Virus record (IMG/VR): IMGVR_UViG_3300046352_000123 | Coordinates: 1 to 64,000 of that record | Source: a virus | Length of the DNA: 64,000 nt | Reading direction: 5' to 3' (one strand) | Part shown: positions 10,926 through 52,480 of the stretch, piece after piece | How positions within the stretch are numbered: position 1 is the stretch's first letter | How the letters are laid out: each line of letters begins with the position of its first letter | The notes under the pieces: model-generated | Told to the model about the DNA's origin: nothing | Seen by the model: only the letters and a program-made list of their open reading frames with translations | Database searches by the model: none | Made by a program: the position numbers and the translations under genes

Positions 10926-10941
10926 GTATATTATTAATGTA
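10926..10941 (+). promoter_or_regulatory. Candidate phage promoter motif (scaffold/capsid unit)
   Basis: GTATATTATTAATGTA in the portal-scaffold gap, 33 bases before the scaffold ATG. It is one of eight matching intergenic copies. It is followed by a C/A-rich leader (CCAAACCAACCAACCC, 10957-10972) with no Shine-Dalgarno. It probably drives scaffold and major capsid protein. Confidence 0.65.
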
Positions 10942-10973
10942 GCGATACACAGAAAACCAAACCAACCAACCCT

Positions 10974-12239
10974 ATGCAAACCGCAGCTGATAATACTACT
11001 GTAAAGACAGTAGACCTTGATATTGATAGCTGGTTAGGAGCTCCAGGAGCAGACAGCATTGTTACTCCGCAAGAAGATCCTAAGCCTAACATGTTCTCTC
11101 AAGACAAAGACGTTGACTTGAGCTTTGTTGACAAAAAAGATACACCTGCTGCTGATGATGATTCAGATGATGCAGGTAAAACTCCTCCCGCTCCTGTAGA
11201 TGTGGATGACTTATTTGGTAAACTGAGTGATGATAACTCAGATGACCAGGATGAGCCTGCTAAAGGTAAAGGTGGAAGACCTAAGACAGAAAAGTCTGGC
11301 TTAGTTGAGTTCTTCAAGAAGCGCATTGAGTCAAAGGAAATGTTTGCCTTTGATGACTACGATGAGTCTAAGCAATCACTTGATGATTACCTGGGCACGC
11401 TTTCAGAGAAAGATATGGATGAGCTTTGGAAAGCTAACGTTGATAACCTCAAGAGTGAGGTTGCTTCAAGCACACCAAAAGAATTCTTTGAATCTCTGCC
11501 TGATGAACTGCAGTACGCTGCAAAGTATGTAATGGATGGCGGACAAGACTTAAAAGGTCTTTTCCAGGCACTGGCTCAGGTAGAACAAGTACGTGACTTA
11601 GATCCAACAGCTGAAGGAGACCAGGAAGGCATCATCCGCTCTTATCTGCAGGCAACCAACTTTGGTTCCCCGGAAGAGATTGATGAGGAGCTTAACACCT
11701 GGAAAGACTTAGGTGTATTGGAAAAGAAAGCCAAGCAGTTCAAGCCAAAGCTTGACCAGATGCAGGAGCAGATTGTGCAGAACCAAATTGAAGAACAGGA
11801 GGTCCGCAATCAGCAACAGCAACAAGCTGCACAAGCTTATATGGACAATGTCTTTGAAGCATTAAGAGCAGCAGAAATCAATGGCTTAAAACTGGACAAG
11901 AAGACACAAGCGTCTTTATACACCGGCCTGGTACAACCCAACTACCCATCTATCTCCGGCAGACCAACCAACCAACTAGGTCACCTTTTAGAGAAGCATC
12001 AGTTTGTTGAGCCCAATTACCCGCTTATTGCTGAAGCACTCTGGTTATTATCAGATCCGGATGCATACAGAGAGCAATTAAGAAAGCAAGGCAGCAGCAA
12101 AGCTGTTGAAGCCACAGTGAGACAATTAAAGACAGAGCAGGCCCGTAAAACCTCCACTTCATTTGATGACAGCGATGAGCCTGCATCAAGAAGCACTGCC
12201 CGCAAGATCCCACGCAGTACTAACATTTTTAGAAGATAG
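10974..12239 (+). CDS. Scaffold-like head assembly protein
   Basis: This 421-residue protein looks like an internal scaffold. It has an N-terminal ~110 residues rich in Asp, Pro, Lys and Ser (disordered), a helical middle, and a Gln-rich coiled coil at about residues 265-295 (QEQIVQNQIEEQEVRNQQQQ). The C-terminal tail is basic (SRSTARKIPRS), as expected for binding the capsid protein. It lies directly upstream of the major capsid protein, 43 bases apart, and has its own promoter motif. No protease motif is visible. The assignment is by composition and position. Confidence 0.65.
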   Translation: MQTAADNTTVKTVDLDIDSWLGAPGADSIVTPQEDPKPNMFSQDKDVDLSFVDKKDTPAADDDSDDAGKTPPAPVDVDDLFGKLSDDNSDDQDEPAKGKGGRPKTEKSGLVEFFKKRIESKEMFAFDDYDESKQSLDDYLGTLSEKDMDELWKANVDNLKSEVASSTPKEFFESLPDELQYAAKYVMDGGQDLKGLFQALAQVEQVRDLDPTAEGDQEGIIRSYLQATNFGSPEEIDEELNTWKDLGVLEKKAKQFKPKLDQMQEQIVQNQIEEQEVRNQQQQQAAQAYMDNVFEALRAAEINGLKLDKKTQASLYTGLVQPNYPSISGRPTNQLGHLLEKHQFVEPNYPLIAEALWLLSDPDAYREQLRKQGSSKAVEATVRQLKTEQARKTSTSFDDSDEPASRSTARKIPRSTNIFRR

Positions 12240-12282
12240 TAACAGTTTATAATAATCCTTAACCCTAAACATTTCAATTAAC

Positions 12283-13902
12283 ATGGCAACTCCAGTATTG
12301 AATAATGGTATATTCTTACGCGACACGACCTACGCAGCGTCGTCTCACGTAGACTCATACCATTTATCCAACCTGCTGAAGAGTGCAGAACCAATGGACT
12401 TAGGTCCTGTGGATCTGTGGGCAATGGCACAAAAGGTAGAAATGCCTTTGTACCAGATGTCATCATTCGGAGGCAAAAATGTTATCTCGGTAGATAACGC
12501 ACGTGGTGAGTATAAGTGGCAGATTCCTGTAGCACAGGACCTTCCTTATATCACTGAAGATATTGAATCAGCTAACGCCACTAAAGGTGTAGATGGTCAA
12601 ACTTTCAAGATCAAGTTGAACAAGCGTCAGTTTGGACATGGTGATATCATCACTTATGACAAATACAATGGTGCTGAGATGTACATCACTGCAGACGATA
12701 TTATCCCTGCTGGTGACGGTTTCATCTACACAGTTCAATTGGTAAACAATGACAACCTTAAGTTCTTAGACAACAAGTATTTGAAGTCTGGTACAAAGGT
12801 ATTCCGTAAGGGTTCTGCTCGTGGTGAATACGGTGAGCGTTTCTCTGACTTAGGAACAGTATCTGCAGGATTCCGTGAATTCTACAACTACGTAGGTGGT
12901 GCTGAAGCACACGTACATTACTCTATCTCATCTCGTGCAGACATGATGATGAAGGGTGGTATGAAGGCTGATGGTACTGTACCAGTTGTTGAGTTATGGC
13001 GTTCATTTGACAAGAGCATTGATCCGGCTATCACAGACCTTAACGGCTTAGCGACTAAGATGGGTAAGGACTATGTGAAGAAGGCTTATGAGAACGGTCA
13101 ATTGACTCGTACTTTCTTAACAACTTTAGAAGCTGCTCACTTGAGCAAAATCTCTACTGACATTGAGACTTACTTAATGTGGGGACAAGGTGGACGTGTG
13201 AAGCAAGATGGACCAGATGATATCCGCTTATCAGTGGGTCTTTGGAAACAACTTGACAACTCATACAAGCGTATCTACAACAAAGGTTCATTCAACCTTG
13301 ACTTGTTCAAATCTGAGATCTTCAACTTCTTCAACGGTAAAGTTGATTTCCAAGGACCAGATCCTAAGCGTGAGCTAGTTGTACAAACTGGTTTAGGTGG
13401 TATGAAGCTTATCAACGAAGCAATCAAGAAAGAGGCAATCAACTCTGGCTTGGTAATCAATGCTTCTGAAGTAGGTGCTATCACTGGTAAAGGAATGGAC
13501 TTGAACTTTGGTTTTGCATACACTCAATACGTTATTCCATTCTTGGCTAACGTGAAGTTTGTATTGAACCCTGCGTTTGACAACATTCACACAAATGATA
13601 TTGAGAACCCTATCATTGATGGCTTCCCATTATCATCTTACAACTTCATCATCTTTGATATCACAGATAATAACAATGACAATATTTACTTATTGAAGTT
13701 GAGCTGGGATAATCAATTGAAGTGGTTCTACCAAAACGGTACAATGGATTACATGGGTCGTTCACAAGGCTTCCAGTCATCTGGACAGTTCAATGGATAC
13801 CGTGTGTTCATGACGCAGACAATGCCTGCTGTTTGGGTTAAAGATCCAACTAAAGTATTGAAGATTGTAATGAGAAACCCAGTTACTGGCGGATCATTCT
13901 AG
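12283..13902 (+). CDS. Major capsid protein
   Basis: A 539-residue protein in the position of the major capsid protein, after portal and scaffold. It has the size and texture of an HK97-fold capsid protein. It begins near DTTYAASSHVDSYHLSNLL and contains a long helix region in KRIYNKGSFNLDLFKSEIFN. The codon usage is strikingly regular (GGT, GCT, CGT, ATC, AAC, TTC preferred), as expected for the most abundant product. It is followed by two strong hairpins. A start at 12283 fits the A/C-rich leader. I see no sequence motif that alone proves the HK97 fold. Confidence 0.82.
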   Translation: MATPVLNNGIFLRDTTYAASSHVDSYHLSNLLKSAEPMDLGPVDLWAMAQKVEMPLYQMSSFGGKNVISVDNARGEYKWQIPVAQDLPYITEDIESANATKGVDGQTFKIKLNKRQFGHGDIITYDKYNGAEMYITADDIIPAGDGFIYTVQLVNNDNLKFLDNKYLKSGTKVFRKGSARGEYGERFSDLGTVSAGFREFYNYVGGAEAHVHYSISSRADMMMKGGMKADGTVPVVELWRSFDKSIDPAITDLNGLATKMGKDYVKKAYENGQLTRTFLTTLEAAHLSKISTDIETYLMWGQGGRVKQDGPDDIRLSVGLWKQLDNSYKRIYNKGSFNLDLFKSEIFNFFNGKVDFQGPDPKRELVVQTGLGGMKLINEAIKKEAINSGLVINASEVGAITGKGMDLNFGFAYTQYVIPFLANVKFVLNPAFDNIHTNDIENPIIDGFPLSSYNFIIFDITDNNNDNIYLLKLSWDNQLKWFYQNGTMDYMGRSQGFQSSGQFNGYRVFMTQTMPAVWVKDPTKVLKIVMRNPVTGGSF

Positions 13903-13914
13903 TCATAGGTCTTA

Positions 13915-13938
13915 CCTGGGGATGAAATACTCCCCAGG
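13915..13938 (+). terminator. Strong hairpin after the major capsid gene
   Basis: CCTGGGGA and TCCCCAGG form a perfect 8-bp stem with an 8-base loop, 12 bases after the stop codon. No T-run follows, so it may be a transcript-stabilising 3' end or a partial terminator rather than a classical intrinsic terminator. Confidence 0.5.
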
Positions 13939-13961
13939 GAATGACCAAACAAAGTGCCCCT

Positions 13962-13981
13962 CCTGTGGATAGTATCCCAGG
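13962..13981 (+). other. Second hairpin in the capsid 3' region
   Basis: CCTG-T-GGAT and ATCCCAGG pair as an 8-bp stem with one bulged T and a 3-base loop. With the hairpin at 13915 it makes the 153-base gap after the capsid gene heavily structured. It has no T-run. Confidence 0.4.
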
Positions 13982-14055
13982 ACCCCCTGTAGTAAGCACA
14001 CTGAAACACTAGAGTTTGCAGCTCTTTACAGGGACAGAAGAAAAATCCAACATCA

Positions 14056-14283
14056 ATGAAAAGTACCAGACTAGGAAGACTTGTTAAGGTAAAGAACACC
14101 AAGAAGGTGAACTATCCCAATGTCAATGATGCCTACTTCGCCATTTGGGTGAAGGATGCTGCTGGAAAGAACCCCAAGTGTTTGCTCTTTACAGAAGCAG
14201 ATTTGGCTAAAGCTGAGCTCAGAGCACAGAAGAACCCGGAGGACTTGACAGAGCGTAGCCTATACTCACTGATGGTGGACTAA
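14056..14283 (+). CDS. Hypothetical protein, 75 aa
   Basis: A small basic protein between the capsid gene and a 338-residue virion protein. It begins MKSTRLGRLVKVKNTKKVNY and contains a predicted strand pair (AYFAIWVKDAAGK, CLLFTEADLAKAE). I do not recognise it. The context suggests a minor head protein such as a decoration or completion factor, but nothing in the sequence proves it. The 153 bases upstream carry hairpins and no promoter motif. Confidence 0.6.
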   Translation: MKSTRLGRLVKVKNTKKVNYPNVNDAYFAIWVKDAAGKNPKCLLFTEADLAKAELRAQKNPEDLTERSLYSLMVD

Positions 14284-14316
14284 TGTCTTGTATATAAACC
14301 AAAACCAACCAACAGC

Positions 14317-15333
14317 ATGAGTTCAGTAACTATTGTGGAGAAATACCCACAAAACAAGCGGTCTTCTATTTCTATCAGACCATACTTTGATCCCAATGTA
14401 GATAACATGGGTCTTCAGAAATACGGGTTATCCCTGTTTGAAGGAGCTTTTCACGAAGAGCAACTGGCTTGTCTGGAGATCAACGGTATCAAGAGATACC
14501 TCACAGGTCTTAATGAATATGCTCCGGAGATTAAAGATCTAAATGGAGAAGAGCAGGTAGCTAAGGTTAAACAAATCAGAGCTGTTGTAGCTCAGCTGGA
14601 AAAAGAACTGGCGGCTAACACAGTTGATCCTGCAGATGCAGACTTCTGGAATAAGTTACAACTGCTAAAACCTAACAACTCAGATTTCTGGGACAAGGTG
14701 AAGATACGTTGTGGTAATGAGCCGGTGTTCTTAGAACCAGACAAAGACCCTTATGACCTTATCAGGTTATACGCCATTGAGAACGGAGGGTTTTCTATTG
14801 TGGCAAAGTCATTAGATGATGCCAGAAGCCGCGCAGTGCCACCTAAGTTTTACTTAGACCGTTTAGAGGAGACAGCATCCACTAAGACAGAAGTTAAGAA
14901 GCTACGTAACAAAGCGCTGGCAGAACTTCAGAAGTTATTTGACAAAAATCAGAACAAACTGTTCTACGTAGCAAAAGTGCTTGACGTAAACAGTGCCCAG
15001 TATAGAAAGAGTACACCAAATGACCTGACCTATGACAACATGGATAAGTTCATCAACGGTGAATCCGTAGACAAGGACAAGCGCAGAACCGCTGAGAAAT
15101 TCCTGGAGGCAGCTAATGCTGACATGGAGAGCTTAAAGATCCGTGCTATTGTAAAGGACTCTACCTATTACAAGTTCATTGCAAACAAGTCTGACGGATT
15201 TATCTATGACCTGGAGAGCTCTACCATGATGGGTAGAAATGTCTCTGATGTAGTAGAGTTCCTGAAGAACCCTTTGAATGAGTCTGTATTGATTTCACTG
15301 ACAAGAAGAGTAGAACAATACTGGCAACAGTAA
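14317..15333 (+). CDS. Virion structural protein, 338 aa, unknown role
   Basis: An acidic, helix-rich protein with a long charged middle (LEETASTKTEVKKLRNKALAE, a likely coiled coil near residues 185-215) and a mixed alpha/beta end (FIYDLESSTMMGRNVSDVV). No known domain is recognised. The gene is preceded by an A/C-rich leader (ACCAAAACCAACCAAC, 14298-14313), like the scaffold gene, and followed by a clear intrinsic terminator. It belongs to the head module by position and might be an auxiliary capsid or internal protein. Confidence 0.6.
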   Translation: MSSVTIVEKYPQNKRSSISIRPYFDPNVDNMGLQKYGLSLFEGAFHEEQLACLEINGIKRYLTGLNEYAPEIKDLNGEEQVAKVKQIRAVVAQLEKELAANTVDPADADFWNKLQLLKPNNSDFWDKVKIRCGNEPVFLEPDKDPYDLIRLYAIENGGFSIVAKSLDDARSRAVPPKFYLDRLEETASTKTEVKKLRNKALAELQKLFDKNQNKLFYVAKVLDVNSAQYRKSTPNDLTYDNMDKFINGESVDKDKRRTAEKFLEAANADMESLKIRAIVKDSTYYKFIANKSDGFIYDLESSTMMGRNVSDVVEFLKNPLNESVLISLTRRVEQYWQQ

Positions 15334-15345
15334 GCATATAACAGT

Positions 15346-15388
15346 ACCTGGGTTGCTTCCCGTAAGAACAGCACCCAGGTCATTTTTT
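15346..15388 (+). terminator. Rho-independent terminator
   Basis: ACCTGGGTTGCT pairs with AGCACCCAGGT (11 bp with one bulged T) and is followed by CATTTTTT. This is a textbook intrinsic terminator between the 338- and 233-residue structural genes. It starts 12 bases after the stop. Confidence 0.85.
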
Positions 15389-15395
15389 ACAAGCA

Positions 15396-16097
15396 ATGAA
15401 CAACACCCTTCTACAGATCAAGATAAAGCAGAGATTAAACAAACTAGCCTCCTTTGACTATGATAATCTGGAGTGCTGGGTAATTGCGGAAGCGTTTAAC
15501 AAGGCTCAGTTAGAGTGGGTAAGACGCCAGTTGCTGGGACTTAACTCCCGCCAGGCACAACCTGAGCAGACAACGGCTACCATCTCTGACTTGCAGATGC
15601 TCATGGAAGAGCGGTTCATTGGCGGCAGAGACAGAGAACTTTATTTTGAAAGCACAGAGGTGCCGGATGACTATATGAAGTTTGTCCTGGTCAGCTCCAG
15701 AGCTTTAACAGACTGCTGCCCTGAGCGTATCATGAGTGTTTACCTGGCAGAAGAAGGCAACGCAGATGAGTTACTGCAGGATAATTTTAAGGGTCCTTCC
15801 TTTGAGTGGGGAGAAACCTTTGCCACCATTGCTGAGAACAAGATCCGGATCTACACAGGAGGTAAGTTTAACATCATTAAACCAAAACTTGTCTACTACA
15901 GAAAGCCACGCCCCGTGCAGTTTGCCGGGTGTATGGACATTGAGACTGGAAAAACCTACAAGTACAATCAGATCTGTGAACTCAAAGATGAAATTGGTGA
16001 GATTATCTGTGATGAAGCAGCTGCCATTTTAGCCGGAGACATAGAGAGTATTACACAGTACCAAAGAGAAGTACAAGCAGGCACCCGAAATAGTTAA
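15396..16097 (+). CDS. Putative connector/ring-type structural protein, 233 aa
   Basis: The protein has a helical N-terminus (LLQIKIKQRLNKLASFD, FNKAQLEWVRRQLLG) and a beta-rich second half with ESTEVPDDYMKFVLVSS, FKGPSFEWGETFATIAENKI, YYRKPRPVQF and a C-terminal helix CDEAAAILAGDIES. This layout matches head-tail connector or adaptor proteins seen near capsid genes in large phages, which form a ring below the portal. It starts directly after a terminator. No promoter motif was found between them, so some read-through is expected. Specific function is inferred from layout and position. Confidence 0.62.
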   Translation: MNNTLLQIKIKQRLNKLASFDYDNLECWVIAEAFNKAQLEWVRRQLLGLNSRQAQPEQTTATISDLQMLMEERFIGGRDRELYFESTEVPDDYMKFVLVSSRALTDCCPERIMSVYLAEEGNADELLQDNFKGPSFEWGETFATIAENKIRIYTGGKFNIIKPKLVYYRKPRPVQFAGCMDIETGKTYKYNQICELKDEIGEIICDEAAAILAGDIESITQYQREVQAGTRNS

Positions 16098-16099
16098 AC

Positions 16100-16507
16100 A
16101 TGCAAAAGCTACAAAGACCAGGAGGCAACCTGGAAACCAAAACAGCGTCACTGGTTAGTGAGCTTATGAACGGAGCTACCAGTTTTCACAAACTGCACCT
16201 CAAGATTACAGGTATTGGTTCTTTTGCCGGACATGCTGCCCTCAATGAATTGTATGATGCTCTACCAGGGCATGCAGATACACTGGCAGAACAGTTCCAG
16301 GGAGCAGCTGAAAAGCTGTTAACCTACACAGATGAAGCACCCAGAGTGCTGAACTCTGTACAAGATGCCCTGGCCTACTGCCGGGAGATCAACAACATGG
16401 TAACAGACCTGCAAGGTATGATGCCACATAGTGAGATTGCCAATGACCTGGACATGGTTAAATCAACTGTCAACAGCATCAAGTACAAGCTCCTATTCCT
16501 AAAGTAA
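16100..16507 (+). CDS. Dps/ferritin-like protein
   Basis: This 135-residue helical protein fits the Dps/ferritin-like four-helix bundle. The motif HLKITGIGSFAGHAALNELY, then DALPGHADTLAEQ, reproduces the Dps ferroxidase signature. His 33, His 45, Asn 49, Asp 60 and Glu 64 have the same spacing (12, 4, 11, 4) as His 51, His 63, Asp 67, Asp 78 and Glu 82 of E. coli Dps. Only the Asp 67 equivalent differs (Asn 49, next to Glu 50). The usual N-terminal Dps tail is missing. It is located between a connector-type gene and an abundant structural protein. It may bind iron, or be a structural derivative of the fold. Confidence 0.75.
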   Translation: MQKLQRPGGNLETKTASLVSELMNGATSFHKLHLKITGIGSFAGHAALNELYDALPGHADTLAEQFQGAAEKLLTYTDEAPRVLNSVQDALAYCREINNMVTDLQGMMPHSEIANDLDMVKSTVNSIKYKLLFLK

Positions 16508-16545
16508 TTTATTTTTTTATTTATAACCCTTAATTCTTAAACCCT

Positions 16546-17877
16546 ATGTATTTTCCTAATGCATTTAAGAAGTCTTACCTGGTAAAAACTACCACTTTAA
16601 GAACTTCAGGAAGCACGGCTGATCTGACTGCAGGTCAAGTAGGTTTCTTTGACTCTAAGAGCTTTGCTGCTCTTTCAACTGGAAGCATTGCTCCATTTAT
16701 TTTTGCTCAGGGATCTTGGTTTGCACAAGACAAGATCGGCCCTGTACACGGTGGTTACAAGGAGTCTGTAAAGACTAAGACAATCAACCCTAAGTACATC
16801 TCACGTGTTATCAAAGTTGCTTCTAAAGCTGCTAAGAATAACATCATCAAGGTGACTGCTAACGGTGAATTGTTCACTTCAGACAACACGTACCGCTTAC
16901 GCCTTGACATCAAAGGTTCACCTGCTTTACGTTTCTTAGGACACCAATTGTACCGCACACTGGATGCATTTTCTGGTTGTGATGCAGTTGCTGGTACTAC
17001 TAACACGGTAGATCCGGTTGCTATCCTTAACCAATGGGCTGCACAAGTAAACACTTACCCATTATTGAAAGACTTTATCCAGGCTAAAGTATACAAGCAA
17101 GCTGCTGCAACTACTGCTGCTGCTGCTGTATCTAACTCAACTGCATTGACAGTTGCTGCTGGAACAGGTATCGCTGTAGGACAGAAAGTAGAAGGTATCG
17201 GTGTTGCAGTAGGAACTACTGTAGCTGCTGTATCTGGAACTTCTGTAACATTATCAGCTACTGCTACGATTGCTAACGGTGCTGCGGTAACATTCTCTGC
17301 TTTGGTAGACGGTGCTACTTACACAGCTGCTACTTCTGGTATCTCTGGTATCAAAGCACACATGGACCTAGTAGGTGCATACGTAGACACAACTTTCTCT
17401 AACGCTACTTTCACTCAGACTGACAAGTATGATTTAGAGCCAATCTACATCTATGCATCTTTCGTAGATGATTCAGGTGAAGCTTGTTCTGTAAATGGTA
17501 TTGCAGTATCTGAGACTCAGGTTGCTAACCAGGCATCTGGTGTAGGTGAGACAGTATTGCGTGATTTAATCCTGGATGGTAAGTATCGTCAAGAGGCTTT
17601 CCCAGATGGTGGACACGTAGACTTCTTACGTATGCGTGAGATCGAAGCTAATCCGGTATGGCAAGAAGTTAACCGTGCTGGTCTTTATGATCAAGTATTG
17701 GTACTTCACAATGTACCTCGTTTCAACAACCCATCAAGCACATTTGACAATGATCAGTACTTGATCACTATCAACGTGCCTGCTGGAACAGCTACAACTT
17801 CTATCACTGATTTCTTAGTTGCGGCTGCTGCTGCTGCTCAAGGAGCTGGTGCTGTGACTTTGGAGTCTGCTCAATAG
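16546..17877 (+). CDS. Second abundant structural protein, 443 aa (tail or decoration type)
   Basis: It starts MYFPNAFKKSYLVKTTTLR and contains DLTAGQVGFFDSKSFAAL, a pattern I associate with large-phage virion proteins. Residues ~185-255 are an Ala/Val/Thr-rich beta insertion (AGTGIAVGQKVEGIGVAVGT, SGTSVTLS), a typical add-on domain of exposed virion proteins. Codon usage is as strongly biased as in the major capsid gene (GCT, ACT, GGT, CGT), implying high expression. It has its own strong terminator. It could be a tail-tube-like, decoration or auxiliary capsid protein. A myovirus-type sheath is not supported by anything else in the window. Confidence 0.68.
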   Translation: MYFPNAFKKSYLVKTTTLRTSGSTADLTAGQVGFFDSKSFAALSTGSIAPFIFAQGSWFAQDKIGPVHGGYKESVKTKTINPKYISRVIKVASKAAKNNIIKVTANGELFTSDNTYRLRLDIKGSPALRFLGHQLYRTLDAFSGCDAVAGTTNTVDPVAILNQWAAQVNTYPLLKDFIQAKVYKQAAATTAAAAVSNSTALTVAAGTGIAVGQKVEGIGVAVGTTVAAVSGTSVTLSATATIANGAAVTFSALVDGATYTAATSGISGIKAHMDLVGAYVDTTFSNATFTQTDKYDLEPIYIYASFVDDSGEACSVNGIAVSETQVANQASGVGETVLRDLILDGKYRQEAFPDGGHVDFLRMREIEANPVWQEVNRAGLYDQVLVLHNVPRFNNPSSTFDNDQYLITINVPAGTATTSITDFLVAAAAAAQGAGAVTLESAQ

Positions 17878-17896
17878 GCTAACTTGAAACTCTGAG

Positions 17897-17934
17897 AAAA
17901 GGGTGGGGACATTGTCTTCACCCTTTTTCTTTTG
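17897..17934 (+). terminator. Rho-independent terminator
   Basis: AAAAGGGTG pairs with CACCCTTTT and continues into TCTTTT. It lies 20 bases after the stop of the 443-residue structural gene and just upstream of a promoter motif, marking a transcription-unit boundary. Confidence 0.85.
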
Positions 17935-17953
17935 GAATCCTGCTCAATTTTTG

Positions 17954-17969
17954 GTATATTATTATTGAG
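17954..17969 (+). promoter_or_regulatory. Candidate phage promoter motif (start of fibre block)
   Basis: GTATATTATTATTGAG preceded by TTTTTG, 20 bases after an intrinsic terminator and 41 bases before the next ATG. It is a slightly divergent member of the repeated motif. Confidence 0.6.
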
Positions 17970-18009
17970 TACAACTCTGATTATTTTCCAACCTACCTTA
18001 TAGAAAACA

Positions 18010-18564
18010 ATGGCCTTAAAACATCAATTAAGCCTTGAGACTCCTGATACCAACAACTGTAAAGTGCTCAGGATATTTGATACCAGCACCTATGCTGAGG
18101 GCTTAGATAAAGAATGCGGCACTTTGCAGATTACTTCTCCAGGCTTTAACCTGCCTGTGAACATAGAAGTATTGCCTTTTTTCAACATTGTTCTTAACGG
18201 TTGTTCCCTGGGTTTACAAAAATCCGGGTGTGGAGATAGCCTTATGTGCATCCCTGACGGTATTTATGTAATCAGGTATTCAGTGGCTCCTAATACCCAG
18301 GTATTATCTGAGTATAACCACCTGCGGGTAACTCAGACATTGAATAAATATTTCAATGAACTCTGCAAGCTGGAGATCAACAGTGCAGAGCCGGATGCTG
18401 ATGTGAGAAAGAAGTTCTCAGAACTCAACACCATCAAAGGCTACATTGACGCTGCCAAAGTAAAAGTAGAATACTGCCACCAGCCTGAAGAAGGTATGGA
18501 GCTGTTGATATATGCTCAGAAAAAGCTCAATGCTTACGCCGAGCAGTTCGGAGATTTTTGCTAA
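18010..18564 (+). CDS. Conserved structural protein, 184 aa
   Basis: A Cys-containing beta-rich N-terminal half (CGTLQITSPGFNLPVNIEV, FFNIVLNGCSLGLQ, CIPDGIYVIRYSVAPN, EYNHLRVTQ) is followed by a helical C-terminus (FSELNTIKGYIDAAKVKVEY, LLIYAQKKLNAYAEQ). I recall similar proteins from aquatic and gut phages beside fibre genes, but they have no assigned function. It is the first gene after a promoter motif and is followed by a small zinc ribbon. It may be a tail or fibre attachment protein. Confidence 0.62.
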   Translation: MALKHQLSLETPDTNNCKVLRIFDTSTYAEGLDKECGTLQITSPGFNLPVNIEVLPFFNIVLNGCSLGLQKSGCGDSLMCIPDGIYVIRYSVAPNTQVLSEYNHLRVTQTLNKYFNELCKLEINSAEPDADVRKKFSELNTIKGYIDAAKVKVEYCHQPEEGMELLIYAQKKLNAYAEQFGDFC

Positions 18565-18590
18565 GTCTAACCCTATAATCCAAGACCAAC

Positions 18591-18770
18591 ATGGATAATC
18601 AACAACCAACTGTTACCTGCCCTAATTGCGGTGCTGTCATCACCTGTGGATGCCAACAAAGAACAGCTTCTAACGGAGTGAATGTATGTTCAAGCTGCCA
18701 CGGTCAATATGAGCAGAACCTTTACGCTCAACAACAATTACAACAGCTTACTGCCAGTAATCCACAATAA
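18591..18770 (+). CDS. Small zinc-ribbon protein, 59 aa
   Basis: This short gene reads CPNCG, CGCQQR and CSSCH near residues 10-45, i.e. two CxxC knuckles plus a CGC, a compact zinc ribbon. The C-terminus is Gln-rich (YAQQQLQQLTASNPQ). ATG 18591 follows the leader ACCAAC; the TAA overlaps the ATG of the next gene (TAATG). A role as a small virion or assembly protein is likely from its place in the fibre operon, but unproven. Confidence 0.75.
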   Translation: MDNQQPTVTCPNCGAVITCGCQQRTASNGVNVCSSCHGQYEQNLYAQQQLQQLTASNPQ

Positions 18771-19896: not shown

Positions 19897-19911
19897 TAAC
19901 CTCGACCTAAC

Positions 19912-21117: not shown

Positions 21118-21139
21118 GTTCATTTGTCCGTGTATGTAA

Positions 21140-22153: not shown

Positions 22154-22193
22154 CATTAAAACTTTTCTGTTGGACAGTGAAAACAGATAACTA

Positions 22194-29934: not shown

Positions 29935-29949
29935 GTATATTATAATGTA
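29935..29949 (+). promoter_or_regulatory. Candidate phage promoter motif (S74 fibre unit)
   Basis: GTATATTATAATGTA, a perfect copy of the consensus, preceded by TTTTTAG and placed 19 bases before the fibre ATG. It sits inside the fibre block, so this fibre and the following small proteins may be transcribed separately. Confidence 0.7.
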
Positions 29950-34086: not shown

Positions 34087-34117
34087 CATTATAATTTGCA
34101 GAATTTGAAAATATTCA

Positions 34118-34132
34118 GTATATTATAATGTA
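34118..34132 (+). promoter_or_regulatory. Candidate phage promoter motif
   Basis: GTATATTATAATGTA, a perfect consensus copy, 24 bases before the next ATG and followed by an A/C-rich leader (CTAACCAACCC). Confidence 0.7.
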
Positions 34133-34665: not shown

Positions 34666-34688
34666 AATATTCCTCGTGACCTATAAGC

Positions 34689-34721
34689 AAGCCCCTGGTA
34701 TTTTACTGGGGGCTTCTTTGT
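34689..34721 (+). terminator. Rho-independent terminator
   Basis: AAGCCCC and GGGGGCTT pair (7-8 bp) with a 12-base loop and are followed by CTTTGTT. It closes the single-gene unit at 34156 and precedes another promoter motif. Confidence 0.8.
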
Positions 34722-34757
34722 TAGTCAACATTTATTTGTAAAAACCACCAAGTTTTG

Positions 34758-34772
34758 GTATATTATAATGTA
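34758..34772 (+). promoter_or_regulatory. Candidate phage promoter motif (Fn3/Ig protein unit)
   Basis: GTATATTATAATGTA, a perfect copy preceded by AGTTTTG. It starts 37 bases after the terminator ends and ends 36 bases before the ATG of the 498-residue gene. The clean terminator-then-promoter arrangement is one of the strongest arguments that the motif is a promoter. Confidence 0.72.
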
Positions 34773-37766: not shown

Positions 37767-37788
37767 ACTGTTTACAAACTGTTTACAA
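37767..37788 (+). repeat. Perfect tandem 11-bp repeat after terminator
   Basis: ACTGTTTACAA occurs twice with no spacer, just after the terminator and 73 bases before the metallophosphoesterase ATG. This gap has no copy of the GTATATTATAATGTA motif. The repeat is a candidate for an alternative promoter element or protein-binding site. Confidence 0.55.
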
Positions 37789-37861
37789 CTAAGGCATAGA
37801 ACCAAAGTCATCCCCTACATTTACATTCCATAACTATGGCCTTTTGGCTACCTAATATCCT

Positions 37862-39196: not shown

Positions 39197-39225
39197 GTTT
39201 AGATTGGAAAAGAGCTTGATTTTTT

Positions 39226-39240
39226 GTAAATTATAATGTA
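39226..39240 (+). promoter_or_regulatory. Candidate phage promoter motif (ring/muzzle unit)
   Basis: GTAAATTATAATGTA preceded by TTTTTT, one mismatch from consensus, 12 bases before the ATG of the 194-residue gene. It probably drives the ring, stabilisation, muzzle and first cargo genes, since no other copy appears for 11 kb. Confidence 0.65.
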
Positions 39241-39251
39241 GCAGACCTTGC

Positions 39252-39836: not shown

Positions 39837-39843
39837 TTACCCT

Positions 39844-46036: not shown

Positions 46037-48945
46037 GTCTAAATAAGAGTTTACTTGCCGATATCCAAAAGAAGATGTCCAAGCCTTCTAAGCCTAAAGT
46101 ACCCCGTAACCAGTGGCAACATCCTGGTGAGATTACTAACATACCTTCTAATAATATTACGATGGATGGTGTTAGTTATCCTGTGTTAGGGGTCCCTAAT
46201 ATTGGACAAGCTCAAATGATGTATCCTAATCAAGACTATCTATTTCCTGATGCAGATAACGTTACTGAGTATCCAATGATGCAGAATGGTGGACTATTAA
46301 GTCGATCTGTTACTTGCTCTAGTTGTGGTCATTCTTGGAAAGCAGTTGATGGTGGATCTGATCCTATGACATGTCATAAGTGTGGAGGTTCTGTTAAGAT
46401 GCAAGGTGGTGGAACAGCTTATGTTGATTCTGTACTAAATGCTAACAAGAATCTTAATTGGGTGCAAAGACTATATCCAAAGAATACACCTTCTATGCAG
46501 ATACCTGGAGTAAAAGGACCTAGTACTCACTATATGCAAAGTGGTGATAGTCGTGTATATCCAACTGTAGTACAAATGCCTAACGGTACTTTAAAGTATT
46601 TAGGCAAAGATGCATTTGATTATGCAGACTCTACTAAGACTTATATACAGTTTCCTAATGATGCTGCAGCAACCTGGTTTGGTGAAAATTATAAAAAAGG
46701 AACTGGTGTATTACCAAAGAATGCATCAGGTGGTCAACACGGTGGTCTGGACAGATGGTTTGCAGAGAAGTGGGTAGATGTAAAGACAGGCAAAGACTGT
46801 GGCAGACAAGAGGGAGAATCCCGCAAGGGTTATCCGGCATGCAGGCCTAGCAAGAGAGTTAATGACGATACACCCAAGACATCTTCTGAGTTATCATCTG
46901 CAGAGAAGGCAAAGTTTACCAGAGAGAAAACATCAAGTGATAAAATAAATTACCAACACCGCAGACGTGAGTTTGGGGGTGAAGAAATGTACAACGACAT
47001 GGAAGAATTCAAATCAGGGGGTAATGTCCCTACCAACCCGTCTTTATGGTCAAGAGCTAAGTCTATGGCCAGACAAAAGTATGATGTGTATCCAAGTGCT
47101 TACGCTAATGGATGGGCAGCTAAGTGGTATAAGAGCAAAGGTGGTGGTTGGAAAAAAGCTGAGTACGGTATGGAAGTAGAGATGCAGAAAGGCGGCAGCT
47201 TGTATGATTATATGGCGGCCCGTGGTATGGATGCAGACTTTAGCAGCCGTAAGAAAGTATTTGATAAATACTTTGCCAATAATTACAAAGGTACAGCTGA
47301 GCAGAACAAGCAAATGCTCAACATGCTGCAGTACCAGGAGAAACCCCGAGTAAACATAAACTATGCTTCTCCTGCGGTTCAATCCGCTATGCCTGCCTAC
47401 GTACCTACTACGCAAACTAAAGCAACCGCTAAAGGTATGCAACGTGTAAACAACAAGGTAGATAACCGTAACTGGTTTGAAAGAACTTTTGGCATGAATG
47501 AGGATGAGGTACAAGAGCAATCTTTTGACCTTCCTCAGGATGTGTACAACTACTACAATCAATACGCAGAGAAGAACAAAGGCAAGAAGTTTGGTATTGT
47601 ATCCAAGCAGAATGCCCGTGGTTATTTCTTTGATGAGAATGGTAACCTTGCTTTACAAGATGAGGTTGGGCTGGGCCAAGATGCAGGTGATGAACAACCG
47701 GTGTTTTATAAGAAAAGAACTACACCTTCCGGTGAATATACCATGAACCGTGCAGGTAAGGGTAACACAAGTGCAACCGACTATGGTAAAAACTATGGGT
47801 CTGATAACTTCTTTTACATCCAGCATACAGATCCTAACAAGCGTTTGCTTCCGGATCCTGCAAACCCTAACAGAAAAGTGAGTGTAGCCATGCACGGTAT
47901 TCCTACTCACTTGTTAGGTGACAGGGAGAAATTATTTGACAATAATAAAGTATCTGATAACCGCATGAGTGCAGGTTGTATCAACTGCCGCAAAAAGACT
48001 TTAGATAATCCTTACTTTAAAAACGTGGGGGCTAATACTTCATTGTATGTAACGCCTGAGAAAGCTTATGGTGGCGGTACAGATAATCCTGGCTTTAAAG
48101 CTTTACCGGAATTTGTACAAGCAAAGATCATGAGTAACATGGCCTATGGCGGTTCAGCACAACAAGCAGCTATTGCTATGGCAATGAAAGCTGCAGGAAA
48201 AAAACCTAAAGCACAATATGCAGAGGGAGGCAAAATGCCAGAAGAAATTGCTCGTGCCCGTTTTGCAGCTGCCGGTAACCTGGATAAGATGGATGACTAC
48301 GGGTATGCTTACGGCGGTTATATGCCGTTCATGGGTGATGGTGGTCAACCAGATGGTGAGATGGCTCTGTCTCAGATCAATGCTATGATGGATAAGCTGG
48401 ATAAGCTTCGTAAGTTCATTAAGCCAGATTCTGACCTGGAACCCTGGCAGGCAAGCAAGATCACTCTTATGGATGACTTTGCCGGTTCTGTATATGACAA
48501 CATGATGTACTCTCCGGAGAACCAGGAGATGACTGAGGAACAGATGGAGCAGATGGCTAATGGTGGGTACACTGTAAGCAGAAGCAATGACAGAAAAGGA
48601 AAGACCCATAAAGTAACAGGTCCTGATGGCACTGTCAAATATTTTGGGGATTCTAACTTAGGTCAGCATCCTAAAGACCCAGAGAGAAAAGCAGCTTTCT
48701 ATGCCAGACATAAAAAGAACTTAGACAACAATCCATTTTTCAGGGCATTTGCCAGAAAGACATGGAAAGACGGCGGCTCTACATTCTCAGGTAATGCCTT
48801 TTATGAAGCAGGCGGTATGCCATGCTTTGAATGCGGAGGCTCTATGAAAAATGGAGGACAGCATTCAGTAGGTGATGAAATGGAAGTGACTCCTGCACAG
48901 ATGGCAGAGTTAAAAAGGCTTGGTTACACTTTTGAAGTACTATAA
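46033..48945 (+). CDS. Multidomain cargo-type virion protein with L,D-transpeptidase-like domain, 970 aa
   Basis: Domains in order: a zinc ribbon (Cys 95, 98, 114, 117); a DUF5872-like block RWFAEKWVDVKTGKDCGRQE with YPACRPSKRV near residues 240-285; a block SAYANGWAAKWYKSKGGGW near 334-376 of the kind found in phage and large-virus proteins; and an L,D-transpeptidase (YkuD)-like domain with TTPSGEYTMNRAG, AMHGIP (His 621) and MSAGCIN (Cys 649). His and Cys are farther apart than usual. Many xxGG motifs (MAYGG, MANGG, YEAGG) follow, and a C-terminal tail like that of the next protein. It is probably packaged and ejected, and may modify or cut peptidoglycan. Confidence 0.75.
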   Translation: MSLNKSLLADIQKKMSKPSKPKVPRNQWQHPGEITNIPSNNITMDGVSYPVLGVPNIGQAQMMYPNQDYLFPDADNVTEYPMMQNGGLLSRSVTCSSCGHSWKAVDGGSDPMTCHKCGGSVKMQGGGTAYVDSVLNANKNLNWVQRLYPKNTPSMQIPGVKGPSTHYMQSGDSRVYPTVVQMPNGTLKYLGKDAFDYADSTKTYIQFPNDAAATWFGENYKKGTGVLPKNASGGQHGGLDRWFAEKWVDVKTGKDCGRQEGESRKGYPACRPSKRVNDDTPKTSSELSSAEKAKFTREKTSSDKINYQHRRREFGGEEMYNDMEEFKSGGNVPTNPSLWSRAKSMARQKYDVYPSAYANGWAAKWYKSKGGGWKKAEYGMEVEMQKGGSLYDYMAARGMDADFSSRKKVFDKYFANNYKGTAEQNKQMLNMLQYQEKPRVNINYASPAVQSAMPAYVPTTQTKATAKGMQRVNNKVDNRNWFERTFGMNEDEVQEQSFDLPQDVYNYYNQYAEKNKGKKFGIVSKQNARGYFFDENGNLALQDEVGLGQDAGDEQPVFYKKRTTPSGEYTMNRAGKGNTSATDYGKNYGSDNFFYIQHTDPNKRLLPDPANPNRKVSVAMHGIPTHLLGDREKLFDNNKVSDNRMSAGCINCRKKTLDNPYFKNVGANTSLYVTPEKAYGGGTDNPGFKALPEFVQAKIMSNMAYGGSAQQAAIAMAMKAAGKKPKAQYAEGGKMPEEIARARFAAAGNLDKMDDYGYAYGGYMPFMGDGGQPDGEMALSQINAMMDKLDKLRKFIKPDSDLEPWQASKITLMDDFAGSVYDNMMYSPENQEMTEEQMEQMANGGYTVSRSNDRKGKTHKVTGPDGTVKYFGDSNLGQHPKDPERKAAFYARHKKNLDNNPFFRAFARKTWKDGGSTFSGNAFYEAGGMPCFECGGSMKNGGQHSVGDEMEVTPAQMAELKRLGYTFEVL

Positions 48946-48946
48946 C

Positions 48947-50392
48947 ATGAAGATCCGTATAACAGGGCTTAAGAAATTTCAGCTGGCAGGGCAGAACACT
49001 TTTCCTCAGATAACTCCTAACAAGTTTCAGTTTCAATTATCTGACCAGGAAATGATTGATCAGGCCAGCAATGATTTTCAAATGACAAATCAGGCTTTTC
49101 CTACTCAGGCTCCTACAGGTGCTGCTGCAGATGCTGTATTTGCCAATGACCTAAAGCAACGTATTGCTAAGGAGAATCCTGAAATTGACCTACCTAAAAG
49201 GACAGTTAATTTCATGGATGTGATGAATGCAGGATATAATGCTGCTAATCTTTACAATGCAGCTTTCAACAAGGGTGATGCTGAAAGAGAGCGTGATACC
49301 TTATTACGTAACCGTAATGCCCAGTTTAACCAACAAGGAGAAAACTCCATGGATAGAGGTAACTACGGTGTAGGGCCTTCTGACTATGGTTTATTCAGAC
49401 CAGATCAAATGGGTGTCAAGTCTCCGGAAGGACAGTACAATGGTGGACGGTTCTTTCAGGTAGGAGGAGTTAACGCTGAGACAGAACAGTACATGGTGCC
49501 TTCTATTGATGCGTTTAGTAATACGGCCCTGGTGAACCCTATGGACTATATGCCACAGACTATGCCGGAGATGCCTAGTATGCCTGCTCAACCTGCAGAG
49601 ACAAACTTTAAATCTGCCTCTATATCATTAAAAGAGCAGATTGCTACCCGTGAGAGTGGCGGCGACTACCGGGCCCTTCCTAAAAAGAAAGACGGTTCCC
49701 TGGCAAGTTCTGCAGCGGGTAAGTATCAGTTCTTATGGAACCAACACAAAGACACTATCCGCACGGTAACAGGAGTAGACAGCAAGCAAGCTTTCTTAGA
49801 TACTCCGGATGCCCAGGAAAAATACTTTGACTATTGGAATGCTAATACCCTGACGCCGTATGCCCAGAAGATTAAACAGCAGTACAATCCCAAGCAGTCT
49901 GTAGACCAGATAAAAATGATGATTCATTTTGCAGGGCCTAAGGGAGCTATGGATTACTTTGGTAAGGGTAAGATAACCCGCGATGCTTTTGGTACAACCA
50001 ATGCAAACTATACCGGCCTGGATACTAAGCCAGGAGTAAACATCAATAACCTGGATGCAGGTCTTAGTGCTTTTGCTACAGACATGAGTGCACAGTTTCC
50101 TGGCCTGAAGATTTCTTCCGGCAATGACAGCAAGCACATGAGTGGCTCCAAGCATTACCAGAACAAAGCTATTGACATTGGTGCCAACTCTTCTGATAGA
50201 AGGGCTTACAATCAACTGAAAGGCCTTTTAAGCCAGAGCCCACAGATCCGCCAGCGCTACGGCATTGAAGACATCATTGATGAAGGAGATCACCTGCACG
50301 TAGAAATGATGCAGCAAGGTGGAGAGTATGAGCTTACAGCAGACCAGATCATGCAGATCAAAGCTATGGGCGGTGATGTGGAGTTCATTTAA
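48947..50392 (+). CDS. Two-domain lysin: lytic-transglycosylase-like plus M15 peptidase, 481 aa
   Basis: ATG 48947 comes right after the previous stop. The frame is open slightly upstream, but that would overlap. Residues ~228-345 are transglycosylase/lysozyme-like: TRESGGDYRAL (catalytic Glu 236) and SAAGKYQFLW. Residues ~367-455 are an M15-type D,D/L,D-peptidase: SKHYQNKAIDIG (His 403, Asp 410) and DHLHVEM (Asp 448, His 451), with the correct His-x6-Asp spacing. It would cut both glycan and peptide of the cell wall during entry. The N-terminus is helical and Gln-rich. It ends with a short tail related to that of the preceding protein. Confidence 0.85.
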   Translation: MKIRITGLKKFQLAGQNTFPQITPNKFQFQLSDQEMIDQASNDFQMTNQAFPTQAPTGAAADAVFANDLKQRIAKENPEIDLPKRTVNFMDVMNAGYNAANLYNAAFNKGDAERERDTLLRNRNAQFNQQGENSMDRGNYGVGPSDYGLFRPDQMGVKSPEGQYNGGRFFQVGGVNAETEQYMVPSIDAFSNTALVNPMDYMPQTMPEMPSMPAQPAETNFKSASISLKEQIATRESGGDYRALPKKKDGSLASSAAGKYQFLWNQHKDTIRTVTGVDSKQAFLDTPDAQEKYFDYWNANTLTPYAQKIKQQYNPKQSVDQIKMMIHFAGPKGAMDYFGKGKITRDAFGTTNANYTGLDTKPGVNINNLDAGLSAFATDMSAQFPGLKISSGNDSKHMSGSKHYQNKAIDIGANSSDRRAYNQLKGLLSQSPQIRQRYGIEDIIDEGDHLHVEMMQQGGEYELTADQIMQIKAMGGDVEFI

Positions 50393-50406
50393 ACCTTTTA
50401 GGTTTA
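50390..50406 (+). other. Perfect stop-codon hairpin before promoter motif
   Basis: TAAACCT, loop TTT, AGGTTTA: a 7-bp stem that contains the lysin stop codon. It is 24 bases upstream of a promoter motif. Confidence 0.5.
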
Positions 50407-50429
50407 GCTTGTTAAACTCCAGAAATTTT

Positions 50430-50445
50430 GTTATATTAAAGAGTA
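50430..50445 (+). promoter_or_regulatory. Candidate phage promoter motif, divergent copy
   Basis: GTTATATTAAAGAGTA preceded by AAATTTT, 13 bases before the ATG of the next cargo gene. It is the least conserved member; it is included because position and the upstream hairpin match the others. Confidence 0.45.
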
Positions 50446-50457
50446 GACTATATTCCT

Positions 50458-52428
50458 ATGAAAACATACAGAGTACGTATTAAGGACATGCCTAACATGG
50501 CTTATGGTGGCCAGCGAGGTTACAACCTTGACTTAGGTCAACCGGTGTTAGACAACCAAATGCGTGAGGATAGTCCTTACCAGTCCGTATCTGATACCTT
50601 ACAGCCCGTTCCAAGAGAAGAAGCTAACCTGGAAGCAGAAAAAGGAGAGACTGTTGTAGGTGACCTGGATGGTGACGGCATGCAGGAACACATGAAGATT
50701 GGCGGTAAGCGTCACTCTCAAGGTGGTACGCCGCTTAACCTGAACCCTGGCAGCTTTATATTCTCTGACACAAAGAAGATGAAGGTTGGAGGTGCCGCTC
50801 TGGAGATGTTTGGTAAAAGTGCAGATTCTAAGAAAAAATACACTCCAGCTCAACTGGCAAAGCAATATGACCTGAACAAGTACAAGAGCGTACTTGATGA
50901 TCCATTGGCAGACCCGCTTAAAAAGCAGACTGCTCAAATGATGATGGACAACAATCAAAAAAAGCTGGGTCAGCTTGCCCTATTACAGGAGAGCATGAAA
51001 GGTTTCCCGCAAGGCATTCCAGACATCGCACAGTCTGCTATGCCACAAGCTGCTTTTGGCGGCTTAACTCAGTACCAGACTAAGGGTCAGGTAACAGAGG
51101 ACTACAGAAAGAGAACACCAGGCATGAAAGATATGCGTGAGAACTCTTTTGACAGTTTTAATGACGTGGCAAGTTATTATGGAAACCGTGGCTATACGGG
51201 CAGTCCAAACAATGTGGACCAGTGGCAGAAGTGGATGATCCAGAGTGCTCAAAAAGATCCTGAGTTCAACAACCAGTTTGTGAATTATCTAAAGAATGTC
51301 CCTTTAACTAACAAGGGCAAGAAGATGTATCCTGGTAAAGCAGTGAATCAGTTAACCGATGAGCAGTTAAAGCAACAGTTCAATGACGGTTATTATGATT
51401 TCCGTGCACCGCGTTTGATGGAAAAAGTAGACCCTATCCAAAGAGCTCCTATGCCTATCCCAGTACAGATGAAGTTGCCTACTTTGGCTCCTGTACCTAA
51501 CAGCTACCCTCCTTACACTAGTTCTACGTCTGAAGAGGAAATGCTTTCAGGTCCACAACCAGGGACAGCAGGTGCTCCATATAAAATGCCTAATGCTGAT
51601 TACTTATTACCAGATAAGCTGGCAGGTATGCAGGCCCTGGCTACCAGAGCAACCATTCCTACGATCAAGCCCTTTGTAGCTACACCTGGTTATGTAAAAC
51701 CAAAGGCCGTATTCATGGACCCTACCCGCGACTATGCAGCGAATGCTGAGATGGCTAACATGCAGATGCAGGGTATGAGAACCTTTGGAAGACCACAGCA
51801 ATTCTTAGCAGGCGCATCACAGGTGGCAGGAAGAAACCTGGCAGCCAATGAAGCCAACGCAGGAGCGGTAAATAAGCAAAACGTAATGATTGCCAATCAG
51901 TATGAGACACAAGGTGCACAGATGGATAACCAGTATCTGGCTAACCGTGCCCAGGCAAGTACGATGTACAACGAGATGGCAAACAATGCACTGAAAGAAA
52001 ACTTCCGTAACCAAAGTGCTGCTGACAGTCAATTGCTGGCAGCATACAACAATGCCTGGAACAACCGTGCAATGGTGGATGGCATCAATGCTACCAACCC
52101 TTACTTCATGATTGACTCCCGTACAGGATTTGCCAAACAGAAAGATCCTAATCGTGACATCAACAGCATGATCCGTGGTGCAAGAGGTACAGGTGCAGCA
52201 GCAACTACTTATCCTGAGATGATCAAGTATGCTACGGAGACCTTAAAAATGCCCATGGACAAAGCAACTGCATGGGCTGACGAGCAGATGAAACAAAAAG
52301 GCCGTACTACTACCACTGATAAGGACAATGATGGCTACCCTGATTTTACTTCTGTGATGAACCCATTCATGCAGATGATGGCCGGTATGCAAAACAGACA
52401 GTTTCCAGCCATGAGAATGACACAGTAA
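50458..52428 (+). CDS. Cargo-type virion protein, 656 aa
   Basis: It opens KTYRVRIKDMPNMAYGGQ, an N-terminus related to that of the lysin (MKIRITGLKKFQLAGQ). It then has EAEKGETVVGDLDGDG, IGGKRHSQGGTPLNLNPGSF and IFSDTKKMKVGG, a conserved block I have seen in large Bacteroidota-phage proteins. The middle is Met/Pro/Gln-rich and the C-terminal third is helical (NAGAVNKQNVMIANQYETQG). The GG motifs connect it to the 970-residue protein. Probably an internal, ejected protein; no enzymatic site is visible. Confidence 0.68.
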   Translation: MKTYRVRIKDMPNMAYGGQRGYNLDLGQPVLDNQMREDSPYQSVSDTLQPVPREEANLEAEKGETVVGDLDGDGMQEHMKIGGKRHSQGGTPLNLNPGSFIFSDTKKMKVGGAALEMFGKSADSKKKYTPAQLAKQYDLNKYKSVLDDPLADPLKKQTAQMMMDNNQKKLGQLALLQESMKGFPQGIPDIAQSAMPQAAFGGLTQYQTKGQVTEDYRKRTPGMKDMRENSFDSFNDVASYYGNRGYTGSPNNVDQWQKWMIQSAQKDPEFNNQFVNYLKNVPLTNKGKKMYPGKAVNQLTDEQLKQQFNDGYYDFRAPRLMEKVDPIQRAPMPIPVQMKLPTLAPVPNSYPPYTSSTSEEEMLSGPQPGTAGAPYKMPNADYLLPDKLAGMQALATRATIPTIKPFVATPGYVKPKAVFMDPTRDYAANAEMANMQMQGMRTFGRPQQFLAGASQVAGRNLAANEANAGAVNKQNVMIANQYETQGAQMDNQYLANRAQASTMYNEMANNALKENFRNQSAADSQLLAAYNNAWNNRAMVDGINATNPYFMIDSRTGFAKQKDPNRDINSMIRGARGTGAAATTYPEMIKYATETLKMPMDKATAWADEQMKQKGRTTTTDKDNDGYPDFTSVMNPFMQMMAGMQNRQFPAMRMTQ

Positions 52429-52444
52429 ACTTCCCAGGTTTACT
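52424..52444 (+). other. Perfect stop-codon hairpin before promoter motif
   Basis: AGTAAAC and GTTTACT form a 7-bp stem with a 7-base loop around the TAA stop. A T-run (52456-52464) and a promoter motif follow within 21 bases. Confidence 0.5.
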
Positions 52445-52464
52445 AAACTTATCAGATTTTTTTT

Positions 52465-52480
52465 GTATATTATTAATGTA
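52465..52480 (+). promoter_or_regulatory. Candidate phage promoter motif with almost no leader
   Basis: GTATATTATTAATGTA preceded by a run of eight T. The start codon is only two bases after the motif, so transcription from it would give a very short leader or a leaderless mRNA. It probably drives the 952-residue protein and the giant ORF. Confidence 0.65.

Follow-up and report, generated by a model that had tools for sequence, protein, structure and literature searches.

Which RNA polymerase transcribes the late genes of crAss-like phages, and what signal marks these genes for it? In the parts of the literature drawn on here, a review holds the host polymerase to be the likely enzyme, and the crAss001 study still allows for a role of a phage enzyme (PMC10136315, PMC8375218). 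The question is raised anew by a window of 64,000 nucleotides, bases 1-64000 of the 87,949-bp IMG/VR record IMGVR_UViG_3300046352_000123 (G000 in the comparisons), in which a short motif with the core GTATATTA-N3/4-TGTAGA is repeated in intergenic gaps ahead of capsid, tail and virion RNA polymerase genes. This motif is very probably a late promoter of one clade of crAss-like phages, and on balance we consider it more likely than not that it is read by the host RNA polymerase after its re-targeting by a putative phage factor. Such a reading predicts exact late start sites and either a still missing phage factor or an additional role of the phage polymerase. The motif itself provides a sequence signature by which the late operons of uncultured relatives may be called.

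A repeated motif ahead of the virion-side genes

To assess the motif, we trained a two-box matrix on 11 relatives, leaving G000 out, and applied it at a threshold of 14, which is a cleaner test than the ungapped pattern described below. An earlier note on this window had listed eight near-identical copies, and the matrix ranks seven of them first, with scores of 17.9-26.3; the description fails for the copy at 50430, which is divergent (score 9.8). Over the whole of G000, where gaps make up 3.4% of the record, the matrix gives seven hits in plus-strand gaps and one in a minus-strand gene, against a mean of 0.4 hits and a maximum of 2 in 20 Markov-resampled copies. The ungapped pattern with up to 3 mismatches gave 17 matches versus 2.89 +/- 1.75 in 100 shuffles, none of which equalled 17, a count that takes in genic hits and minus-strand echoes of a near-palindrome and includes only five of the eight sites. 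The copies at 10926 and 52465, which have GTATATTATTAATGTA in common, were missed by this search because they carry one additional base. Among the others, 29935, 34118 and 34758 are identical to each other, 39226 is one base off, 17954 is three bases off, and 50430 reads TTATATTA-AAG-AGTAGA, shifted one base downstream.

On re-reading, all eight sites do lie on the plus strand, in gaps, and 3-41 nt upstream of an ATG. At least four T immediately precede the motif in six of the eight, in agreement with the T-run noted before, and two copies directly follow intrinsic terminators, one of which (17896-17928) has a T-rich tail that continues into the TTTG of the candidate promoter at 17931.

The same bias toward gaps and toward one strand is found across the related records, which are partly redundant, so that motif hits across them do not count as independent events. 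With a leave-one-out matrix, hits above 14 in 12 records fall 68 times in plus-strand gaps, 13 times in plus-strand genes, once in a minus-strand gap and five times in minus-strand genes. Some of the 13 hits in plus-strand genes lie in open reading frames (ORFs) probably over-called by the simple caller, and others form a conserved set within the 3' end of the gene upstream of the 7777 orthologs. A search of 20 related records, G000 among them, finds the motif in 18; of the 46 exact pattern matches in these records, 45 run in the sense of the terminase gene, and a reversed control gives a single match. Likewise, an unaided k-mer count finds TATATTAT in 15 of 129 non-redundant plus-strand gaps and in none on the complement. 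The motif is also nearly absent from early-strand gaps: of 185 such gaps, one holds GTATATTA, and three hold it on the complement. Chance AT-richness as the source of the motif was rejected on the matrix test with Markov copies and the strand bias of the exact matches. A 17-base scan of viral contigs returned 25 stretches, about chance level by its author's own estimate, and was not used.

Conservation was counted by reciprocal best hits to the 11 relatives, with a matrix that includes G000. The site before gene 10974, ahead of the capsid gene, is kept in 11/11 relatives, 25-30 nt ahead of the start. Of the 80 loci in the wider set, 58 extend from the portal end into the next gene, and each of these 58 has a site in this gap. 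The site before gene 18010 is kept in 10/11, the eleventh relative having a site with another ORF start. Those before genes 39252 and 52483 are kept in 9/9 and 8/8 orthologs, 5-13 and 2-5 nt ahead of the start, respectively, and those before 34808 and 34156 in 7/10 and in 4/8, one of the latter being weak. Taken together, position, conservation and absence elsewhere support well the proposal of a phage-specific late promoter made in the earlier note, and from these features we infer promoter activity and late timing.

In the relatives, the motif also precedes a plus-strand operon lying between minus-strand genes, which opens in six of them with the same small protein (KFYAQKDALGFPIPGTMMS and variants; plus strand, G012 121946, G019 5189, G013 11158, G009 120612, G007 76643, G003 83390). 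A tblastn search with one such small protein against a phage collection gave no match, and a seventh site of this kind, in G006, precedes a gene without that small protein. A single exact match, in G007, lies on the opposite strand; read in its own direction, it stands ahead of an early-block gene interpreted as a GIY-YIG homing endonuclease (85344-86006, minus strand). Since a near-perfect late-type site stands near 86032, this mobile gene may be expressed late; the statement that the motif follows gene class and not strand is weakened by there being only one such site.

Two classes of site and the presumed start

A feature overlooked in the earlier note is a TTTG or TTG at a fixed distance upstream of the core. 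The full element, which we call class I, is TTTG-N19-GTATATTA-N3-TGTAGA, and class II sites are without TTTG and mostly have a 4-nt spacer between the boxes. Of 45 non-redundant contexts, drawn from 93 sites scoring above 14, 16 have a TTTG that begins at -23 relative to the first G of the core, and the next-best offset is found in 3. A TTG stands exactly 20 nt upstream of the TA of TATATTA in 43 of 90 sites (39/55 with spacer 3, 3/29 with spacer 4). It is present in 30 of the 30 sites of six gene families (18010, 11 sites; 34808, 8; 34156, 4; 7777, 4; 33563, 2; 16546, 1), 28 of which have spacer 3, and the families of 10974, 52483 and 39252 have spacer 4 in 25 of 31 sites. Elsewhere TTG occurs in 5 of 10 sites far from a called start, in 6 of 15 without a G000 relative, and in the small families of 7071 (0/1), 29968 (0/1) and 50458 (1/2).

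An E. coli-type reading with the TATAAT within TATATTATAATG as the -10 box was rejected as the main reading, given that the upstream TTG is spaced for TATATT; it is also disfavoured by the variation of the TATATTATAATG part in class II. As to the start site, TGTA ends 2-5 nt before the conserved ATG in the 52483 family, and transcription of this family must accordingly be predicted to start at or just past TGTA, unless the mRNA lacks a start codon.

The spacer-3 core is also a near-palindrome (GTATATTATAATGTAC), as the minus-strand echoes reveal, and start-codon distances are constant within a gene family and different between families. Both would suit a binding site for a dimeric phage regulator or a signal at the 5' end or processing point of an mRNA, with no promoter involved. 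We regard this as highly improbable: the extended consensus is directional, with TTTG upstream and TGTAGA downstream, class II is not palindromic, the exact matches run in the late-gene sense but for one, which follows the sense of its own gene, and two of the sites come directly after terminators.

A host polymerase with altered specificity as the probable reader

The primary sigma factor of Bacteroidota reads TTTG at -33 and TAnnTTTG at -7, as stated in the portions of PMC7366714 and PMC9723704 relied on here. Class I sites resemble the targets of this factor (sigma-A, sigma-ABfr) in that 20 nt separate their TTTG from the TA of the second box and in that TAnnTT is kept. They differ in that the TG of TAnnTTTG is changed to AT, the core being TATATTAT and the complete -7 box absent, and in the TGTAGA added at the presumed start; class II differs further by lacking TTTG. 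In fact, the canonical pattern TTG-N17-23-TAnnTTTG is found in no gap of G000, G007 or G002. The contention that the motif does not match the Bacteroidota promoter thus holds for the -7 box, but not for the class I TTTG at its -33 spacing, nor for TATATT, which still fits TAnnTT. Because the spacing of TTTG is host-like and TAnnTT is retained, a sigma-type host holoenzyme is favoured over a phage-encoded polymerase; where the earlier note had left the choice between a phage-encoded and a phage-modified enzyme, a host holoenzyme altered by the phage appears preferable to a wholly phage-encoded one.

We may hypothesize that the redirection of the host enzyme follows the synthesis of the replication proteins. 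The host primary sigma would keep touching TTTG, which in class I would serve, 19 nt upstream of the core, as the -33/-35 contact of a sigma-70-family holoenzyme, as well as the TAnnTT part of the second box, and the core would span the -10 region and the start site. A putative phage product would tolerate the lost TG of TAnnTTTG and read the added TGTAGA around +1, and the redirected polymerase would then transcribe the operons for capsid, tail and virion RNA polymerase. Transcripts would begin at or just after TGTA, which would leave some late mRNAs with leaders just a few bases long. Class II sites, which serve the capsid and virion-polymerase operons and most of the relatives' 39252 copies, would perhaps lean more on the phage factor. 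For phi14:2, the sections of PMC10136315 and PMC8375218 used here describe a virion polymerase that makes early transcripts despite rifampicin, and a host polymerase that likely makes the late ones.

Several observations weigh against this proposal. TTG is missing from the three families in which class II prevails (10974, 0/12; 52483, 0/9; 39252, 1/10, the lone TTG being that of G000), so a sigma-4 contact is not general; moreover, the division into classes was made after the counts were known, and sites within one family are related by descent. The site before 50458 is kept in only 1/8 orthologs, the ortholog in G003 scoring 15.8, and none of the six orthologs of 29968 carries one at the orthologous gap. 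In the gaps of the other nine relatives, TTG-N17-23-TAnnTTTG does occur, 0-3 times on the plus and 0-5 times on the minus strand per record. A phage-encoded sigma factor was sought, none exceeding the cut-off in 12 records, several of which are fragments: Sigma70_r2 matched 0/12, and Sigma70_r4 gave one match far below the cut-off, although very divergent sigmas could escape. Of the early-block proteins, 25 are conserved in four or more of 7 relatives; 10 of them were scanned, with one helix-turn-helix protein like replication initiators, and two were folded, and no phage factor was identified. One of the two folded poorly (predicted local distance difference test score, pLDDT, 51.8), and the other, a conserved protein of 208 aa, gave weak winged-helix/MarR-like matches, the best with an E-value of 0.42, which is insufficient as evidence. 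The AR9-like layout of the core, set out below, points the same way.

It has also to be asked whether a phage factor is needed at all, since a host sigma, primary or alternative, might itself have this consensus. A generic sigma-70 scan reads a TTG-type hexamer 17-18 nt from TATATT at four sites (TTGGAA-17-TATATT at 17932, TTTGCA-18 at 34095, TTGTAA-17 at 34736 and TTGTTA-17 at 50409), with no overall excess of such matches. Against this, the early-strand genes of the same phages do not use the motif, and no enrichment was found in three Bacteroidota-labelled metagenome-assembled genomes (MAGs; 6 occurrences versus 11 of the reversed control). Nor was there any in 60 genomes from one family, to which a Chitinophagaceae-labelled MAG with a contig of a relative belongs (10 versus 12), and a host promoter of the bacteria sampled was rejected on these counts. 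These host links are weak: at eight loci, contigs of MAGs that carry related capsid genes bear the labels Chitinophagaceae, Bacteroidia and Bacteroidales, and also Campylobacteraceae, Pseudomonadales and Patescibacteria, and such mixed labels make the binning unreliable. A plain host promoter class seems to us quite improbable.

The phage, its relatives and the coordinates of the sites

The features of the window are collected in the table. The plus strand of the record, up to 74880, carries terminase, portal, major capsid protein and tail genes and an ORF of 4560 aa; the minus strand, from 75352, carries DNA polymerase, primase, nucleases and a helicase fragment. Residues ~2705-3600 of the giant ORF match the structure of the phi14:2 RNA polymerase (6vr4_A, E 3.2e-19, with an 896-aa piece), and its GSDFDIDK is aligned in this match and includes the DFDID of the crAss-type giant RNA polymerases. 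The polymerase is a single ORF in G000, and the predicted polymerase subunits of crAss001 are three ORFs on two strands. The portal matches phrog_6547. Among the 60 matches listed, out of 139 matching records, the terminase is 22-26% identical to those of named crAss-like phages and Flavobacterium phages, and it also matches Fipvunavirus FpV4, classed outside the order Crassvirales; hidden Markov models of the clade terminase and portal both match phi14:2, crAss001 and FpV4. By terminase, portal and giant RNA polymerase, the record can be classed as a crAss-like phage.

In IMG/VR, 139 stretches encode relatives, the best 80 of which, at ~69-100%, were kept. G000 appears to stop inside the helicase gene (175 aa versus 351 aa in G012), and as six of the relatives used have 111-128 kb, part of the early arm is missing from it. 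No common motif was detected in early-strand gaps by k-mer counting and orthologous comparison. Several of these gaps in the relatives have a hairpin and T-run shortly before the start codon, with no recognised promoter between, and a conserved leader like GGGGAACAGCTTAACTGAAC stands just before one early-strand gene start (G012 110698-112638, minus strand; orthologs in G003, G006, G007, G009 and G013), which may be a translational or RNA element. The window further holds a cluster of seven tRNA genes at 2933-3777 (Ser, Ile, Trp, Thr, Leu, Tyr, Cys).

Table 1. Candidate late promoters, terminators and principal genes of the window
Feature	Coordinates	Strand	Matrix score	Remarks
Candidate class II late-promoter core, GTATATTA-TTAA-TGTA	10926..10941	+	21.2	Before gene 10974, which precedes the major capsid gene
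Major capsid protein gene	12283..13902	+		phrog_11589, 6.6e-33; within gene run behind candidate promoter 10926
Intrinsic terminator hairpin	17896..17928	+		-20.5 kcal/mol, z -4.64
Candidate class I late promoter, TTTG (17931-17934), N19, GTATATTA-TTA-TTGA	17931..17968	+	17.9	Before gene 18010
Candidate late-promoter core, no TTG at -22	29935..29949	+	18.8	Before tail-fibre gene 29968
Candidate class I late promoter, TTTG (34095-34098), N19, GTATATTA-TAA-TGTA	34095..34132	+	19.8	Before gene 34156
Intrinsic terminator hairpin	34685..34718	+		-19 kcal/mol, z -4.52; 34689-34715 in another scan; precedes candidate promoter 34758
Candidate class I late promoter, TTTG (34735-34738), N19, GTATATTA-TAA-TGTA	34735..34772	+	26.3	Before gene 34808
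Candidate late promoter, TTG (39204-39206), GTAAATTA-TAA-TGTA	39204..39240	+	21.8	Before gene 39252
Divergent class I site, TTG (50409-50411), TTATATTA-AAG-AGTA	50409..50445	+	9.8	Before gene 50458
Candidate class II core, GTATATTA-TTAA-TGTA	52465..52480	+	18.5	2 nt before ATG of gene 52483; upstream of giant RNA polymerase ORF
Giant ORF, 4560 aa, predicted virion RNA polymerase with GSDFDIDK	55393..64000	+		6vr4_A; ends at 69075 of the record

Comparison with cousin phages and known systems

The cousin phages provide a natural contrast, as they have a plain host-type sequence before the capsid operon where the clade has a different conserved core. In the gap before the gene preceding the capsid gene, phi14:2 has TTG-N21-TATATTTG, FpV4 TTG-N21-TAAATTTG and crAss001 TTG-N20-TATCTTTG, all matching the host consensus, whereas the clade has its class II core at this same position. 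The pre-capsid gene was equated with that of the cousins by position, without detectable homology; in crAss001 it does not adjoin the portal gene, and the capsid gene there is identified by its annotation. In gaps, TTG-N17-23-TAnnTTTG occurs in the late sense versus the other sense 11/1 times in crAss001, 6/0 in phi14:2 and 3/3 in FpV4 (within genes 10/14, 10/4 and 10/9), counts that are by themselves suggestive at most, several of the gap matches lying hundreds of bases from a called start; TTG stands 20 nt before TAnnTTTG in gaps in 9/18, 4/15 and 1/29 cases, respectively. A motif general to crAss-like phages was rejected, given that the clade matrix yields only background in these three genomes (44 hits above 11, 41 of them in genes, the best, 19.1, in a crAss001 gene).

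The early promoter of the AR9 virion polymerase is AAATATATATTAT-(6N)-G, according to the part of PMC5312081 drawn on here (for jumbo-phage virion polymerases in general, see the corresponding part of PMC7598289). The motif is alike in having an AT-rich core near -10 and, at spacer-3 sites, TATATTAT followed by G after six bases (TATATTAT-aaTGTA-G), the +1 about 6 nt downstream being putative in the clade. This layout speaks for a reading in which the phage's own RNA polymerase, in its giant crAss-type or in an infection-made form, would recognise the promoter with no sigma factor, as jumbo-phage polymerases do. G000 does encode a homologue of the phi14:2 virion polymerase, class II sites lack an upstream TTG, the motif is not enriched in the bacteria sampled, and in the consulted text of PMC8375218 the crAss001 authors propose that gp49/gp50 may help late-gene transcription. 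Nevertheless, the AR9 promoter marks early genes and, as described in that part of the paper, includes no TTTG, whereas the clade motif marks virion-side genes and is lacking from early-strand gaps; that six gene families have a TTTG at a constant, host-like distance is unexpected for a sigma-free enzyme, and the host-type sequences of the cousins in the matching gap also count against it. We view reading by the phage polymerase as rather unlikely, though still as a serious rival. Slightly less likely still is its more specific form, in which the crAss-type polymerase or a non-virion form of it would be the late polymerase and would recognise a duplex promoter TATATTAT-6N-G convergent with that of the jumbo-phage enzymes. 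Were it true, late transcription in this lineage would have passed from the host to the phage enzyme, with phi14:2 and crAss001 keeping host-type promoters at the same gap.

A literature search over titles and the starts of abstracts, partial in coverage, found no recognised account of a late promoter motif in crAss-like phages. A parallel to a re-targeted host polymerase is found in T4-type phages, whose late promoters are read by the host enzyme directed by a phage sigma of the gp55 type. Their sequence is unlike the clade motif, and no sigma-like gene over the cut-off was found in the 12 clade records, no search having been aimed at AsiA/MotA homologues. What the T4 late and middle (AsiA/MotA) promoters would share with the system proposed here is its logic, in which the host core enzyme is used, one host promoter element is kept and one is altered.

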